Part shown: in pieces, positions 7,825-62,425 of the stretch
Layout of the letters: the number at the start of each line of letters is the position of its first letter
Numbering within the stretch: the first letter of the stretch is position 1
Assembly: GCF_006715055.1 (NCBI RefSeq)
Contig: NZ_VFMN01000001.1
Span: 2,418,001-2,482,000, forward strand
Length of the DNA: 64,000 nucleotides
Source of the DNA: Lapillicoccus jejuensis
Lineage (GTDB): Bacteria; Actinomycetota; Actinomycetes; Actinomycetales; Dermatophilaceae
Direction: 5' to 3'
Made by a program: the position numbers and the translations under genes
The notes under the pieces: generated by a model
The model's database searches: none
Told to the model about the DNA's origin: nothing
What the model saw: the letters and a program-made list of their open reading frames with translations, nothing else

Positions 7825-9900
7825 TCAGCGCACGGTGACGAGGACCGCCTTGGACACCTTCGAGGTGCCCGCCGCGCTGACCGACTTGACCTGGTAGCGG
7901 TAGGTCTGCCCCTTGACCACATCGGTGTCGACCCAGCTGCCGCCGCCCTGCGAGGTCGCCGGCAGCGTCGTGACCCGGATCCGGTCGCGCACGACGACGT
8001 ACTTGGTGATCGGCGGTCCGGTCGTGGCGCCCACGGTCCAGGTGACCAGCACCTGCGGGCCGGTCTGCGACGTCGCGGTGACGACCGGGGTGGGCGGCAG
8101 GCTGCTCGTGGGGGTCACGGGCAGGGCCGCCGCCCGCGGACCCTCACCGACGGCGTTGAGCGCCGACACCTCGTAGGTGTACGACGTCCCGGCGGCCGCC
8201 CCGGGGTCGGTCCACGTCGTCGCCGCGGCGCCGGTGCTGCCGACCAGGACCCGGCTGCCGCCGGACGGGGTGCGGTAGACCCGGTAGCCGGTGACGGGGG
8301 AGCCGCCCGTGGCCGACGGGGTCCGCCACGCCACGTCGACCTGGCTGGTCGAGACGGTGGCGAGGACGTCGCGGGGCGCCGCGGGGGCCGCCGCGGCCCC
8401 CCGCGCCGGCACGAGCCCGCTCACCGTCGTGGTCGCCGACGCGCCGAGCGCGTTGACCGCGACGACGTCGTACGCGTAGGTCGTCCCGTCGACCACGGCC
8501 GTGTCGTCGAACGCGGGGGTCTTCTGGCGGGAGGCGACCACCTTGGTCGTCCCGCCCGAGCGGCGCGTCACGGTGTACCAGGTGACGGGCGAGCCGTGGT
8601 CGGTGTCGGGGGCCGACCAGGTCAGCTCGACCCGGCCGTCGTACGCCGTCCCGACGAGGGCGGTGACGGGCGCCGGCACCGACTGGGCGCTCGGCGGCAC
8701 GACCTGGGCGAGGTGACCGAGCCCGGTCGTCGCGCCGAACCGGGTGAAGTCGCCACCGACGTAGAGGCTCGTCGCGTCGGCGTCCATCGACCAGATGCCG
8801 AGGGGGCTGTCGACGCGCGGGGCCCACGCCAGCACGGTGCCGGTGGCGGGGTCGACGGCGGCGATCTTCTGGCGGTCCTGCCCCCCGAACGAGGCGGTCC
8901 CGCCGAAGTGCCCGCCGCAGTAGACGACGCCGTCGACGACCTCGACGCCCTGCATGTCGCCGTTCGCCCGCTGCGACCAGCGGGTCGCGCCGGTGATGGT
9001 GTCGAGGGCGGCGCACGCGCCGCCGCCGCCCCCGACGGCGACGTACACGCTCGTGCCGTCCCCGGCGACCGCCTGCACGGGTCCCCGGGTCGTGCCGTTG
9101 GTGGGCCCTGAGGCGAAGGTGGTGTCGAGCTGGCCCGTCGCCACCGAGAGCCGCGCGAGCTTGCGGGCCGCGGTCGTGTTGCCCCCCATGACGGCGAAGT
9201 CGCCGCCGACGTAGACCGAGCCGCCGCCGGGGGCCACGAGGAACGTGCGCACCTGCGCGTCGGGCGCCGGCGCGGGCACGGCGCTGCGCGCCCCGGAGGT
9301 CGTGAGCCGGGCCAGGTAGGGGCCGGTCGTCCCGCTCGTCGTCGACACCGAGAGGAAGGAGCCGCCCACGAGGACGTCGCCGCCGACGAGGGCGAGCGCG
9401 TTGACGCTGTTCGCGGCCGAGGGGGCCCACGGGGTGAGCGCCCCGGTGGCCAGCGAGACGGCGGCGAGGCGGGTGCGCGGCTGCCCGTTGACGCTCGTGA
9501 AGTCGCCGCCCAGCCACAGGGTGGTCCCGTCGGTCGCCACCGAGAGGACCGCGCCGTTCGTGCGCGCGGCGAAGCCGGCGGCGAAGGTGCCGGTGGCCGG
9601 GTCGAACACCGCGACGTTCCCGGCGGCCCGGCTGGCGCCGGACGGACCGACGAGGGCGCTGAACGCCCCGGCGACGACGAGGCGCCCGCCGGTGGCGAGG
9701 ACCTCGTGCACGCGGCCGTTCGTGCCCCAGGTGAGGGCGGCCGAGGTCGGCAGCGGGCTCGTCGTCGCCGCGCCGGCCGGGGCCGCGGCGACGGCGCCGA
9801 GGCCGGTGGCGACGAGGGCGACGGTCGCGGCGAGGACGCCGAGGCGGCGTCGGGCCGTGCGCGGGCGGACGGGGTGCGAGGCGGGTCGGCGCAGCGGCAT
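7825..9900 (-). CDS. Secreted beta-propeller protein with three fibronectin type III domains (paralogue)
   Basis: A 691-residue exported protein with the same plan as its downstream neighbour: signal peptide to about residue 46 (arginine-rich start, then LGVLAATVALVATGLGAV), a propeller region starting TWGTNGRVHEVL with VGGDFT blades, and three fibronectin type III domains ending in VLVTVR. The start ATG at 9900 follows GAGG at about eight bases. The opening motif TWGTNGRV is shared word for word with the other copy, so the pair arose by tandem duplication. The 241 bases between the two genes could hold a separate promoter. Upstream, 541 bases without a gene separate it from the divergent mfd. 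Function unknown. Confidence 0.85.
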   Translation of the reverse strand: MPLRRPASHPVRPRTARRRLGVLAATVALVATGLGAVAAAPAGAATTSPLPTSAALTWGTNGRVHEVLATGGRLVVAGAFSALVGPSGASRAAGNVAVFDPATGTFAAGFAARTNGAVLSVATDGTTLWLGGDFTSVNGQPRTRLAAVSLATGALTPWAPSAANSVNALALVGGDVLVGGSFLSVSTTSGTTGPYLARLTTSGARSAVPAPAPDAQVRTFLVAPGGGSVYVGGDFAVMGGNTTAARKLARLSVATGQLDTTFASGPTNGTTRGPVQAVAGDGTSVYVAVGGGGGACAALDTITGATRWSQRANGDMQGVEVVDGVVYCGGHFGGTASFGGQDRQKIAAVDPATGTVLAWAPRVDSPLGIWSMDADATSLYVGGDFTRFGATTGLGHLAQVVPPSAQSVPAPVTALVGTAYDGRVELTWSAPDTDHGSPVTWYTVTRRSGGTTKVVASRQKTPAFDDTAVVDGTTYAYDVVAVNALGASATTTVSGLVPARGAAAAPAAPRDVLATVSTSQVDVAWRTPSATGGSPVTGYRVYRTPSGGSRVLVGSTGAAATTWTDPGAAAGTSYTYEVSALNAVGEGPRAAALPVTPTSSLPPTPVVTATSQTGPQVLVTWTVGATTGPPITKYVVVRDRIRVTTLPATSQGGGSWVDTDVVKGQTYRYQVKSVSAAGTSKVSKAVLVTVR

Positions 9901-10441
9901 GGAGGGTCCCTCGTGGCAGGTCGAGGGACGCCCGCACCCGGGCGTCGTCCCCCGAGGACGGCACCGGTCCGAGATGGTCCTGTCGCGCGACGACCGACCG
10001 GCGCGGAACAGCAGAGCACGTCCAGCGGCCTCCCAGGCAGGAACCGCGGATTTTGGGTCGGCGAGGGACCTGTCGTCACGCAACCGTCATGTCGGCGCGC
10101 CCGGTCCGCCCGGCTACGTCCGCTTCGGCCGCCCGCTGTCCCGTCGCTGCTCTTTCGCACCTCCGTCGCACCTCCGCCGCACCTCCGCCGCACCTCCGCC
10201 GCACCTCCGCCGCACCTCCGCCGCACCTCCGCCGCACCTCCGCCGCACCTCCGCCGGCCCGTACGACGCCGCGACGGCGGCCGGTGTCGGTGCCCTCGCC
10301 TACGATGAACAGGTCGCCCGACGGTCTCCCGGTCCACCCCGGGGTGTCACCGCCTCGGGCCGTTCGCCGTGACCGACAGGTGCTCGACAGACCGTCGCCG
10401 GCCCCACCCCGCTCGTCCACCCGCTCGTCCTTCGGAGCACC
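9901..10441. other. 541-bp divergent intergenic region upstream of mfd
   Basis: The region between the propeller gene (minus) and mfd (plus) holds a 9-copy minisatellite (10157-10255) and a TACGAT hexamer at 10301-10306 that could be the -10 box for mfd, without an obvious -35 box. A 46-codon frame from ATG 10305 ends in a GTGA overlap with the mfd start; I do not support it as a gene, but it could act as a leader. Nothing else was recognised. Confidence 0.5.
10157..10255. repeat. Tandem repeat, nine 11-bp units
   Basis: Nine head-to-tail copies of GCACCTCCGCC; the first copy differs at one base (GTC instead of GCC at its end). The period is 11, so it is not a codon repeat. Each unit holds CACCTCC, identical to the anti-Shine-Dalgarno core of bacterial 16S rRNA; the other strand therefore shows nine GGAGGTG motifs. 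Confidence 0.95.
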
Positions 10442-20682: not shown

Positions 20683-20746
20683 CGAATCGGGTTCGCGGCG
20701 CTCGGCTCGGGTCGTGACGGGAGCCGAGCGGGACGAATCCGATTCG
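20683..20746. repeat. 64-bp palindromic element, intergenic copy
   Basis: Starts CGAATCGGGTTCG and ends CGAATCCGATTCG; the centre is CTCGGCTC, a GTCGTGAC core flanked by GG pairs, then GAGCCGAG, so the whole folds on itself. The same 64-bp layout occurs twice inside meaB (43804-43867 and 43879-43942). This copy starts 22 bases after the ppx stop and could also work as its terminator. Confidence 0.85.
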
Positions 20747-42954: not shown

Positions 42955-44118
42955 TCAGGAGTGGTCGTAGGCGGCGAGCAGGCGGTCGGCGGCGACGGTG
43001 GCGGGGAGCTCACCGGCGAGGACGGCACGCCGCACGTCGTCCTGCACGGCGCGGACGCCGGGGGAGTGGCGCAGCCGCTGGTCGAGCTCGTCCCGGACGA
43101 GGGCCCAGGTGAAGTCGAGCTGCTGGCCGGCGCGCTTGGCCGCGAGGCCGTCCTCGCCGAGGTGGTCGCGGTGGCGCAGCACCTGCGCCCACACCTCGTC
43201 GACACCGCGGTCGTGCAGCGCCGAGCAGGTGACGACCGACGGCACCCACTCGTCCTTGCCGCGGACCAGCCGCAGGGCGCCGTACAGCTCGCGCGCGGCG
43301 CCCTTGGCCGTGGTCTCCTGGTCGCCGTCGGCCTTGTTGACCGCGACGACGTCGGCGATCTCGAGGATCCCCTTCTTGATGCCCTGGAGCTGGTCACCGG
43401 TGCGGGCCAGGGTGAGGAAGAGGAAGGTGTCGACCATGCCGGCGACGGTGATCTCGCTCTGCCCGACGCCGACGGTCTCGACGAGCACGACGTCGTACGA
43501 CGCCGCCTCGAGGACCGTCATCGCCTGGACGGTGGCCCGGGCGACCCCGCCGAGGGTGCCGGCCGCCGGCGACGGGCGCACGTACGCGTCCGGGTCGGCC
43601 GCGAGCCGCGCCATCCGGGTCTTGTCGCCGAGCACGGACCCGCCGGTGCGCACCGAGGACGGGTCGACGGCGAGCACCCCGACCCGGTGGCCGTCGGCGG
43701 TGAGCCGGGTCCCGAGCGCCTCGACGAAGGTCGACTTGCCGACCCCGGGCACACCCGACACCCCGACCCGCACCGCCCGCGACCGCACGCCGGCCAAGGG
43801 CCGCGAATCGGATTCGGGGCGCTCGGCTCCCGTCGTGACCCGAGCCGAGTGGCCCGAATCCGAGTCGGCCGAGCCACTCGAATCGGAGTCGATGAGCTCG
43901 GCTCCCGTCGTGCCCCGAGCCGAGCGGACCGAATCCGATTCGCGGTCGTCGACCAGGGCCGTCAGGAGCTCGCGCGCGGCCGCGCGGTGCGCGGGACGGC
44001 GCGACTCGACGAGGGTGATGGCGCGCGAGACGTCGGCGCGGCGGCCGGCGCGGACGCCCTCGAGGAGGGCGTCGACGTCGACGGCCCGCCCGCCGGACGA
44101 CCCGCCGGAAGCGCTCAG
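42955..44118 (-). CDS. meaB: MeaB/ArgK-type GTPase chaperone of methylmalonyl-CoA mutase, with an in-frame palindromic insertion
   Basis: A 387-residue G3E GTPase that protects and reloads the B12 mutase. Residues about 17-55 hold the conserved helical N-terminus ([19 protein letters not shown], then [17 protein letters not shown]). The GTPase domain starts near 111 with Walker [13 protein letters not shown] (119-130), then [11 protein letters not shown] and VNKADGD (NKxD). Residues about 59-106 are an extra, Ser/Asp-rich insert encoded by two copies of a 64-bp palindrome (43804-43942), read in frame. No ATG, GTG or TTG precedes the N-terminus; the likely start is CTG 44118 in a CTGA overlap with the mutB stop. 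A TTG at 43797 would delete both N-terminal helix and insert, so I reject it. Start confidence is moderate. Confidence 0.8.
43804..43942. repeat. Two tandem 64-bp palindromic elements inside meaB
   Basis: Copy 1 is 43804-43867, copy 2 is 43879-43942, 11 bases apart (period 75 bases = 25 codons). Each begins CGAATCGGA(T/G)TCG, ends CGAATCCGA(G/T)TCG and has a centre CTCGGCTCCC, GTCGTG, then CCCGAGCCGAG. The layout and length equal the intergenic copy at 20683-20746. On the minus strand both are translated in the same frame into similar peptides ([15 protein letters not shown] and [15 protein letters not shown]). Confidence 0.9.
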
Positions 44119-62291: not shown

Positions 62292-62328
62292 GGTCCCCGT
62301 CGGGTCCTGCACGGCCCACACGCGAACA

Positions 62329-62408
62329 CCCCACTTGTTGCTACTTTCCGACCGACCCGCGGTCGGCGCGCCGACCGAGACCGGGTCGGAAAGTGGCAAC
62401 AAGTGGGG
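62329..62408. repeat. 80-bp imperfect palindrome with 25-bp arms
   Basis: Left arm 62329-62353 (CCCCACTTGTTGC then TACTTTCCGACC) pairs with 62384-62408 with a single mismatch. The 30-base middle is itself palindromic (GGTCGGCGCGCCGACC at 62361-62376). It lies between cbs (ends 62291) and the convergent transporter (ends 62426). It is longer and richer in A/T than the other hairpins here. Confidence 0.85.
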
Positions 62409-62425
62409 TTCTGCGTATCCCGGGG

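Follow-up and report, generated by a model that had tools for sequence, protein, structure and literature searches.

Tandem palindromes in the meaB gene

The window analysed here is a 64,000-nt stretch (positions 2418001-2482000) of the single-contig, 4,579,077-bp chromosome of Lapillicoccus jejuensis (G000). It encodes a MeaB protein whose reading frame runs through two copies of a 64-bp palindrome, and it carries a third copy in an intergenic gap (Table 1). These elements are referred to as family A. A sequence-only reading had reported the pair in meaB and the intergenic copy at 20683; the pair was recovered at the same place as strong inverted repeats, together with the third copy. A search of the window with the core pattern (up to three mismatches) returned three matches, and none in 100 shuffles. 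The third copy lies 21 nt past the stop of its left gene. Genes were called with a home-made codon-usage caller, which gives approximate starts and split meaB, so that this gene was placed by hand.

Table 1. Features of the window and coding sites of family A in the chromosome
Feature	Position	Numbering	Strand	Remark
meaB	42955..44118	window	-	Pfam PF03308, E 8.1e-99; palindromes span residues 59-105
meaB palindrome copy 1 (family A)	43804..43867	window	none	in frame inside meaB
Linker between tandem copies 1 and 2	43868..43878	window	none	11 nt
meaB palindrome copy 2 (family A)	43879..43942	window	none	in frame inside meaB
Third window copy (family A)	20683..20746	window	none	between convergent called genes
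Family D palindrome	62328-62409	window		CTTGTTGC/GCAACAAG ends
MeaB insert	43804-43942	window		two in-frame copies
AAA ATPase (presumably MoxR-like)	72502	chromosome		one in-frame copy
DUF58 protein	156517	chromosome		one in-frame copy
Lipoyl/E2 acyltransferase	1285417	chromosome		one in-frame copy
Nucleoside hydrolase-PfkB protein	2556589	chromosome		one in-frame copy
AIR-carboxylase-family protein (presumably LarB-like)	3879477	chromosome		one in-frame copy

The two meaB copies begin 75 bp, or 25 codons, apart, and the frame is open throughout, as the same reading held. Copy 1 covers residues 59-80 and copy 2 residues 84-105. They are 88% identical to each other, and the identity between copy 1 and copies elsewhere in the genome reaches 92% over all 64 positions. 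From LLTALV to VRVG, the window MeaB has 59 residues versus 21 in G002, one of the two other genomes of the genus (G001 and G002). The sequence-only reading held that known MeaB proteins continue nearly directly into the GTPase domain. Among solved MeaB-like structures, chains 3nxs and 3tk1 go at the insert point from residue 52 to residues 56 and 54, and a comparable insert occurs in none of the 28 homologues aligned, G002 included (29 sequences were fetched and L087 was left out).

No ATG, GTG or TTG lies between the last in-frame stop and the conserved N-terminal region of meaB. The probable start is the CTG at 44116-44118, which overlaps the TGA stop of the upstream mutase; G002 has GTG in its place.

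Architecture of the element

The element is built from symmetric conserved blocks and nearly free spacers, with the architecture GAATCSGATTC - N5 - CTCGGCTC - NN - GTC NN GAC - NN - GAGCCGAG - N5 - GAATCSGATTC. Among 54 aligned copies, conserved positions deviate in 79 of 2700 cells. The outer flanks of these copies look inverted (GACC...GGTC) and are weaker than the blocks. In the variable arms, complementary pairs at 15/50, 16/49, 17/48, 18/47, 27/38 and 28/37 do not exceed the expectation from independence, and pair 14/51 is complementary in 33 copies versus 32.4 expected. Since paired positions do not covary, it is the sequence of the blocks, not the pairing of the arms, that seems to be kept, and selection on an RNA structure is not supported. 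The independence of the arms would also argue against copying through a hairpin. An Rfam search gave eight sub-threshold microRNA models, which we attribute to the chance resemblance of any long hairpin.

Nine sites hold tandem pairs spaced at 75 or 86 bp, with linkers of 11 nt at four sites and 22 nt at five. Four of the pairs rank within the top 4% of pair identity and the remaining five do not; local duplication therefore fits only some of them and is rejected as a general origin. Forty-one of 54 copies are open in five of the six frames. This is above shuffled copies but not above random genomic 64-mers, so there is no case for a stop-free design.

A dispersed family confined to one genome

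The chromosome contains 57 copies at the 48 sites read, of which 54 were found by similarity, pattern and position score and three more through a search with the end blocks. Chance similarity among three sites can thus be set aside. The census is a lower bound: the pattern is satisfied by 54 of the 57 copies and counts 56 places in the chromosome (reversed-pattern control, 0), leaving at least two more places.

At E<=0.001, family A matched none of 37 relatives (two from the same genus, 21 from the same family and 14 from the same order). A pattern scan of GTDB-220 contigs, from which the genome studied here may be excluded, hit seven contigs, two of them from Williamsia, with a single half-match in each. 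None of the seven carries a full element. Their best full-length fits have 19-23 mismatches in 50, like the fit to unrelated G002 DNA (20/50), and the seven contigs are rejected as carriers. Carriage by phages is likewise rejected, with 0 matches in viral_contigs, a set from which records near this genome may be excluded.

Nine intergenic sites, three at L063 and six others, were looked up in relatives by their flanking DNA. At three convergent gaps (L055, L064 and L069), both neighbouring genes are conserved in G002 and the element is absent. The L055 gap measures 18 nt in G002, which equals the 18 nt (12 + 6) that remain here once the element is removed. The L064 gap is 23 nt in the G001/G002 comparison versus an element-free remainder of 8 nt here, and the G002 gap at L069 is longer than, and unrelated to, the remainder here. 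As these two gaps exceed the element-free remainder, replacement of older sequence instead of a clean insertion is possible there. At the three L063 sites, the element is missing from G002, which has kept one neighbour but not the other. Lookup by flanking DNA gave no gap with both neighbours adjacent in G001 or G002 for L049, L073 and L074.

Placement at the ends of genes

The 48 sites comprise 21 between convergent genes, 19 between codirectional genes, two between divergent genes and six inside genes. Convergent gaps account for 21 of the 42 intergenic sites, compared with 57 of 333 other gaps. Where a copy faces a stop codon, 32 of 40 sites lie within 13 nt of that stop, versus 9.9% of other intergenic positions (binomial 2.5e-25). 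The distance is exactly 6 nt at 17 sites and 2 nt at seven (24/40 together); the remaining eight lie 20 to 147 nt away. In a set of 45 sites, the stop adjacent to the element reads TGACCC, a stop plus CCC, in 21 of 44 cases versus 42 of 434 other stops.

The stop beside copy 2598044 stands at the same codon in G002, G042 and G001 (there TAG), and the stop to the right of copy 2591489 is in the same place in G002. The gene end at copy 2587109 differs from that of G002. Placement at gene ends may reflect targeting or survival.

Copies inside genes

Seven copies at six sites lie within genes, and all are in frame (Table 1). Five are read as ESDS...ESDS and two as NRIR...NPIR, and in two copies the other of these frames contains a stop. 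All six inserts fall outside the Pfam stretches shown. The insert is absent from the G002 counterparts of MeaB, the AAA ATPase and the E2 acyltransferase, where the linker alignment is loose, and from the G001 counterparts of the DUF58 protein and the presumed LarB-like protein, in keeping with the absence of family A from both genomes. Same-genus counterparts are thus free of the insert at all six sites when the site described below is included. If each site had a one-in-three chance, all six would fall in frame with a probability of 0.0014; purging of frameshifts explains this equally well.

The sixth site involves two enzymes. In G001, a nucleoside hydrolase and a PfkB kinase are encoded by two genes in different frames, with stop and start overlapping as TGATG. 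In G002, PfkB starts from a separate ATG ahead of GRVVVVG, with no neighbouring hydrolase (4 kb read), and the hydrolases of G042 and G005 have no PfkB frame beside them (3.2 kb read). In the genome studied here the element sits between both domains. The stop has disappeared, GTC stands where the ATG would be, and a single frame joins the two. From the reading frames, nucleoside hydrolase and PfkB kinase are apparently joined as one fused enzyme gene.

Other palindrome families

The genome hosts further palindromes. Family B, with ends GACGCWGCGTC, occurs at 14 places (e.g., L044:6040-6119 and L063:15124-15203), three of them 13-15 nt from a family A copy. G001 and G002 have a few weak places and 35 other genomes have none; G001 carries a GACTCSGAGTC variant.

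Family D consists of CTTGTTGC, a gap and GCAACAAG, with palindromic interiors that are species-specific. A search of 99 genomes gave 8, 7 and 7 matches in the three genomes of the genus. Four genomes from two further genera had 4-13, three more had a single match and the remaining 89 had none (the reversed control gave one match in each of three genomes and none in the rest). At three places that correspond to family A sites here, the orthologous gene is followed by a family D palindrome: in G001 at L055, in G001 at the gene left of copy 2598044 and in G002 at the gene left of the L049 copy.

The G002 meaB linker contains a short palindrome, GACTCTGAGTC. Counts of this block are weak in G002 (9 versus 3 in the control) and higher in G001 (38 versus 3), where the 18 stretches read show it within a family-B-like element, alone or in a short array. 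A relative of family A in G002 is therefore rejected.

Three further repeats were noted. A 91-bp palindrome (GGACATTATCGGG...) has two copies in the stretches read (L046:4659-4749 and L053:10094-10184). Two close palindromes with CCATCAATTGA units lie at L070:8746-8828 and 9834-9924. In G001, L198 (G001:C65:3300-4400) is a tandem array of three GACTCCGAGTC blocks, one every 20 nt.

Origin and maintenance of family A

We consider it likely that family A, with its 57 or more dispersed copies, is specific to this lineage and resembles in its behaviour the non-autonomous mobile elements of the REP/RPE kind. The copies are dispersed and symmetric, they lie close to stops, their frames are open and their counterparts in the genus are insert-free. 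They probably arrived once this lineage had separated from the two same-genus species compared here. Mobility in trans by an unnamed recombinase would be the simplest account of the dispersal, the species limits and the element-free sites. Mobilisation by a RAYT is not supported: the RAYT/Y1 transposase profile PF01797 has no match in this genome, with control matches in five of 14 genomes including E. coli. Eight scanned flanking genes include no transposase. Among the end-block matches listed, the three seemingly unpaired blocks that were fetched proved to be full copies.

Copies would survive mainly directly 3' of stops and between convergent genes, where the hairpin probably serves, harmlessly or usefully, as a bidirectional terminator or as the 3' end of an mRNA. 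With at least one frame of a copy free of stops, insertions of a net multiple of three could be tolerated in linkers and tails, each in-frame copy adding about 22 residues to the predicted protein. At one site, an element placed where the hydrolase stop and PfkB start overlap in G001 would have joined both in one frame. The sequence-only idea of a small mobile repeat that creates protein sequence gains support from the six in-frame sites and the element-free gaps, which suggest mobility.

Beyond this, we propose tentatively that one bacterial family hosts several palindrome families of similar architecture (A, B and D), moved by a hitherto undescribed trans-acting enzyme with a preference for gene ends around the stop codon, and that occasional stop loss merges adjacent genes into fused enzymes.

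A fixed host function is an unlikely alternative origin. Family A would then be a symmetric multi-block site bound by a protein, for instance a nucleoid organiser or termination factor, and spread or maintained by selection without being selfish. The two-fold symmetric blocks, free spacers and arms without covariation are what such a site could look like, as are the few deviations at conserved positions (79/2700) and the placement at gene ends. Its absence from either same-genus species is harder to reconcile with a host function, as are seven copies inside coding regions, nine tandem pairs at two set spacings and, at three places in sister species, a different palindrome (family D) behind the orthologous gene.

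Selection for bidirectional terminators, with the coding copies as accidents of read-through evolution, seems very improbable. The folding energies of the window copies do range from -35 to -46 kcal/mol over the two strands, lower than in any of the 200 shuffles of each, and half of the intergenic sites are convergent. Selection on a hairpin should nevertheless keep pairing, and the variable arms pair no more than independence predicts, save 14/51. A shared 64-bp sequence needs a common origin, not convergence, and copies in genes would risk termination within them. Finally, the notion that the MeaB insert is an ancestral linker resembling the repeat by chance draws on the G002 linker, which at 21 residues exceeds most homologues and holds GACTCTGAGTC, and is refuted by the insert-free homologues and by the identity of copy 1 to copies elsewhere.

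Comparison with known systems

The mobile-element reading places family A beside several described repeats. Rickettsia is the best-known host of in-frame palindromic elements, and the case here would be a second, unrelated one. It would suggest that new linkers and domain fusions arise from small palindromes more generally, and the close association with stop codons opens the insertion mechanism to testing. RPEs are a known kind, as the sequence-only reading had stated: they are dispersed palindromes, a genome can hold several families, and copies lie between genes as well as in frame within conserved proteins that are unrelated to one another, with CGTC repeats, including RPE-4 and RPE-6, lacking a dedicated transposase (PMC10969869, PMC2229807, PMC3733652). 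Family A resembles them in its in-frame copies within conserved proteins (6/48 sites), free of inserts in the G001 and G002 counterparts. It differs in its host outside Rickettsiales, its length of 64 bp versus 105-150 bp, the absence of a CGTC consensus at either end (flanks of 54 copies), its position directly after stops at most sites and the apparent gene fusion.

GTAG/CGTC-tagged REPs and REPINs are described as palindromes mainly 3' of genes, between convergent or codirectional ORFs; they form pairs and groups in species-specific families, intragenic copies are reported and GTAG termini often supply the stop (PMC3733652). The placement of family A is similar, with 40/48 sites convergent or codirectional and 32/40 stop-facing sites within 13 nt of the stop. 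In contrast, family A is a longer single palindrome without a GTAG/CGTC tag, its termini are CGAATC/GATTCG-like and its flanks GACC/GGTC-like (54 copies), and its host has no RAYT. Bacterial MITEs such as ERIC, RUP and NEMIS are short, dispersed and non-autonomous, and some of them form in-frame fusions (PMC2229807). No insertion sequence with the ends of family A came up among the end-block matches listed.

For Actinobacteria, titles and abstract openings, mostly outside subscription journals, gave no description of a palindromic in-frame element. MIRUs are direct repeats, not palindromes. To this extent the earlier statement that no actinobacterial equivalent is described stands; it does not hold for mobile-looking repeats in general, as mycobacterial MIRUs are described as small repeats of this appearance that insert at start codons, so that neighbouring frames overlap (PMC12548453). 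MIRUs couple genes by overlapping codons, whereas one family A site apparently fuses them. The string 'actinobact' is absent from the main text of PMC3733652.

RPEs and intragenic REPs are, by these sources, already established kinds. As far as our literature searches go, family A adds the host group, the untagged architecture, the combination of stop proximity with insert-free counterparts at the six coding sites, and the apparent fusion.
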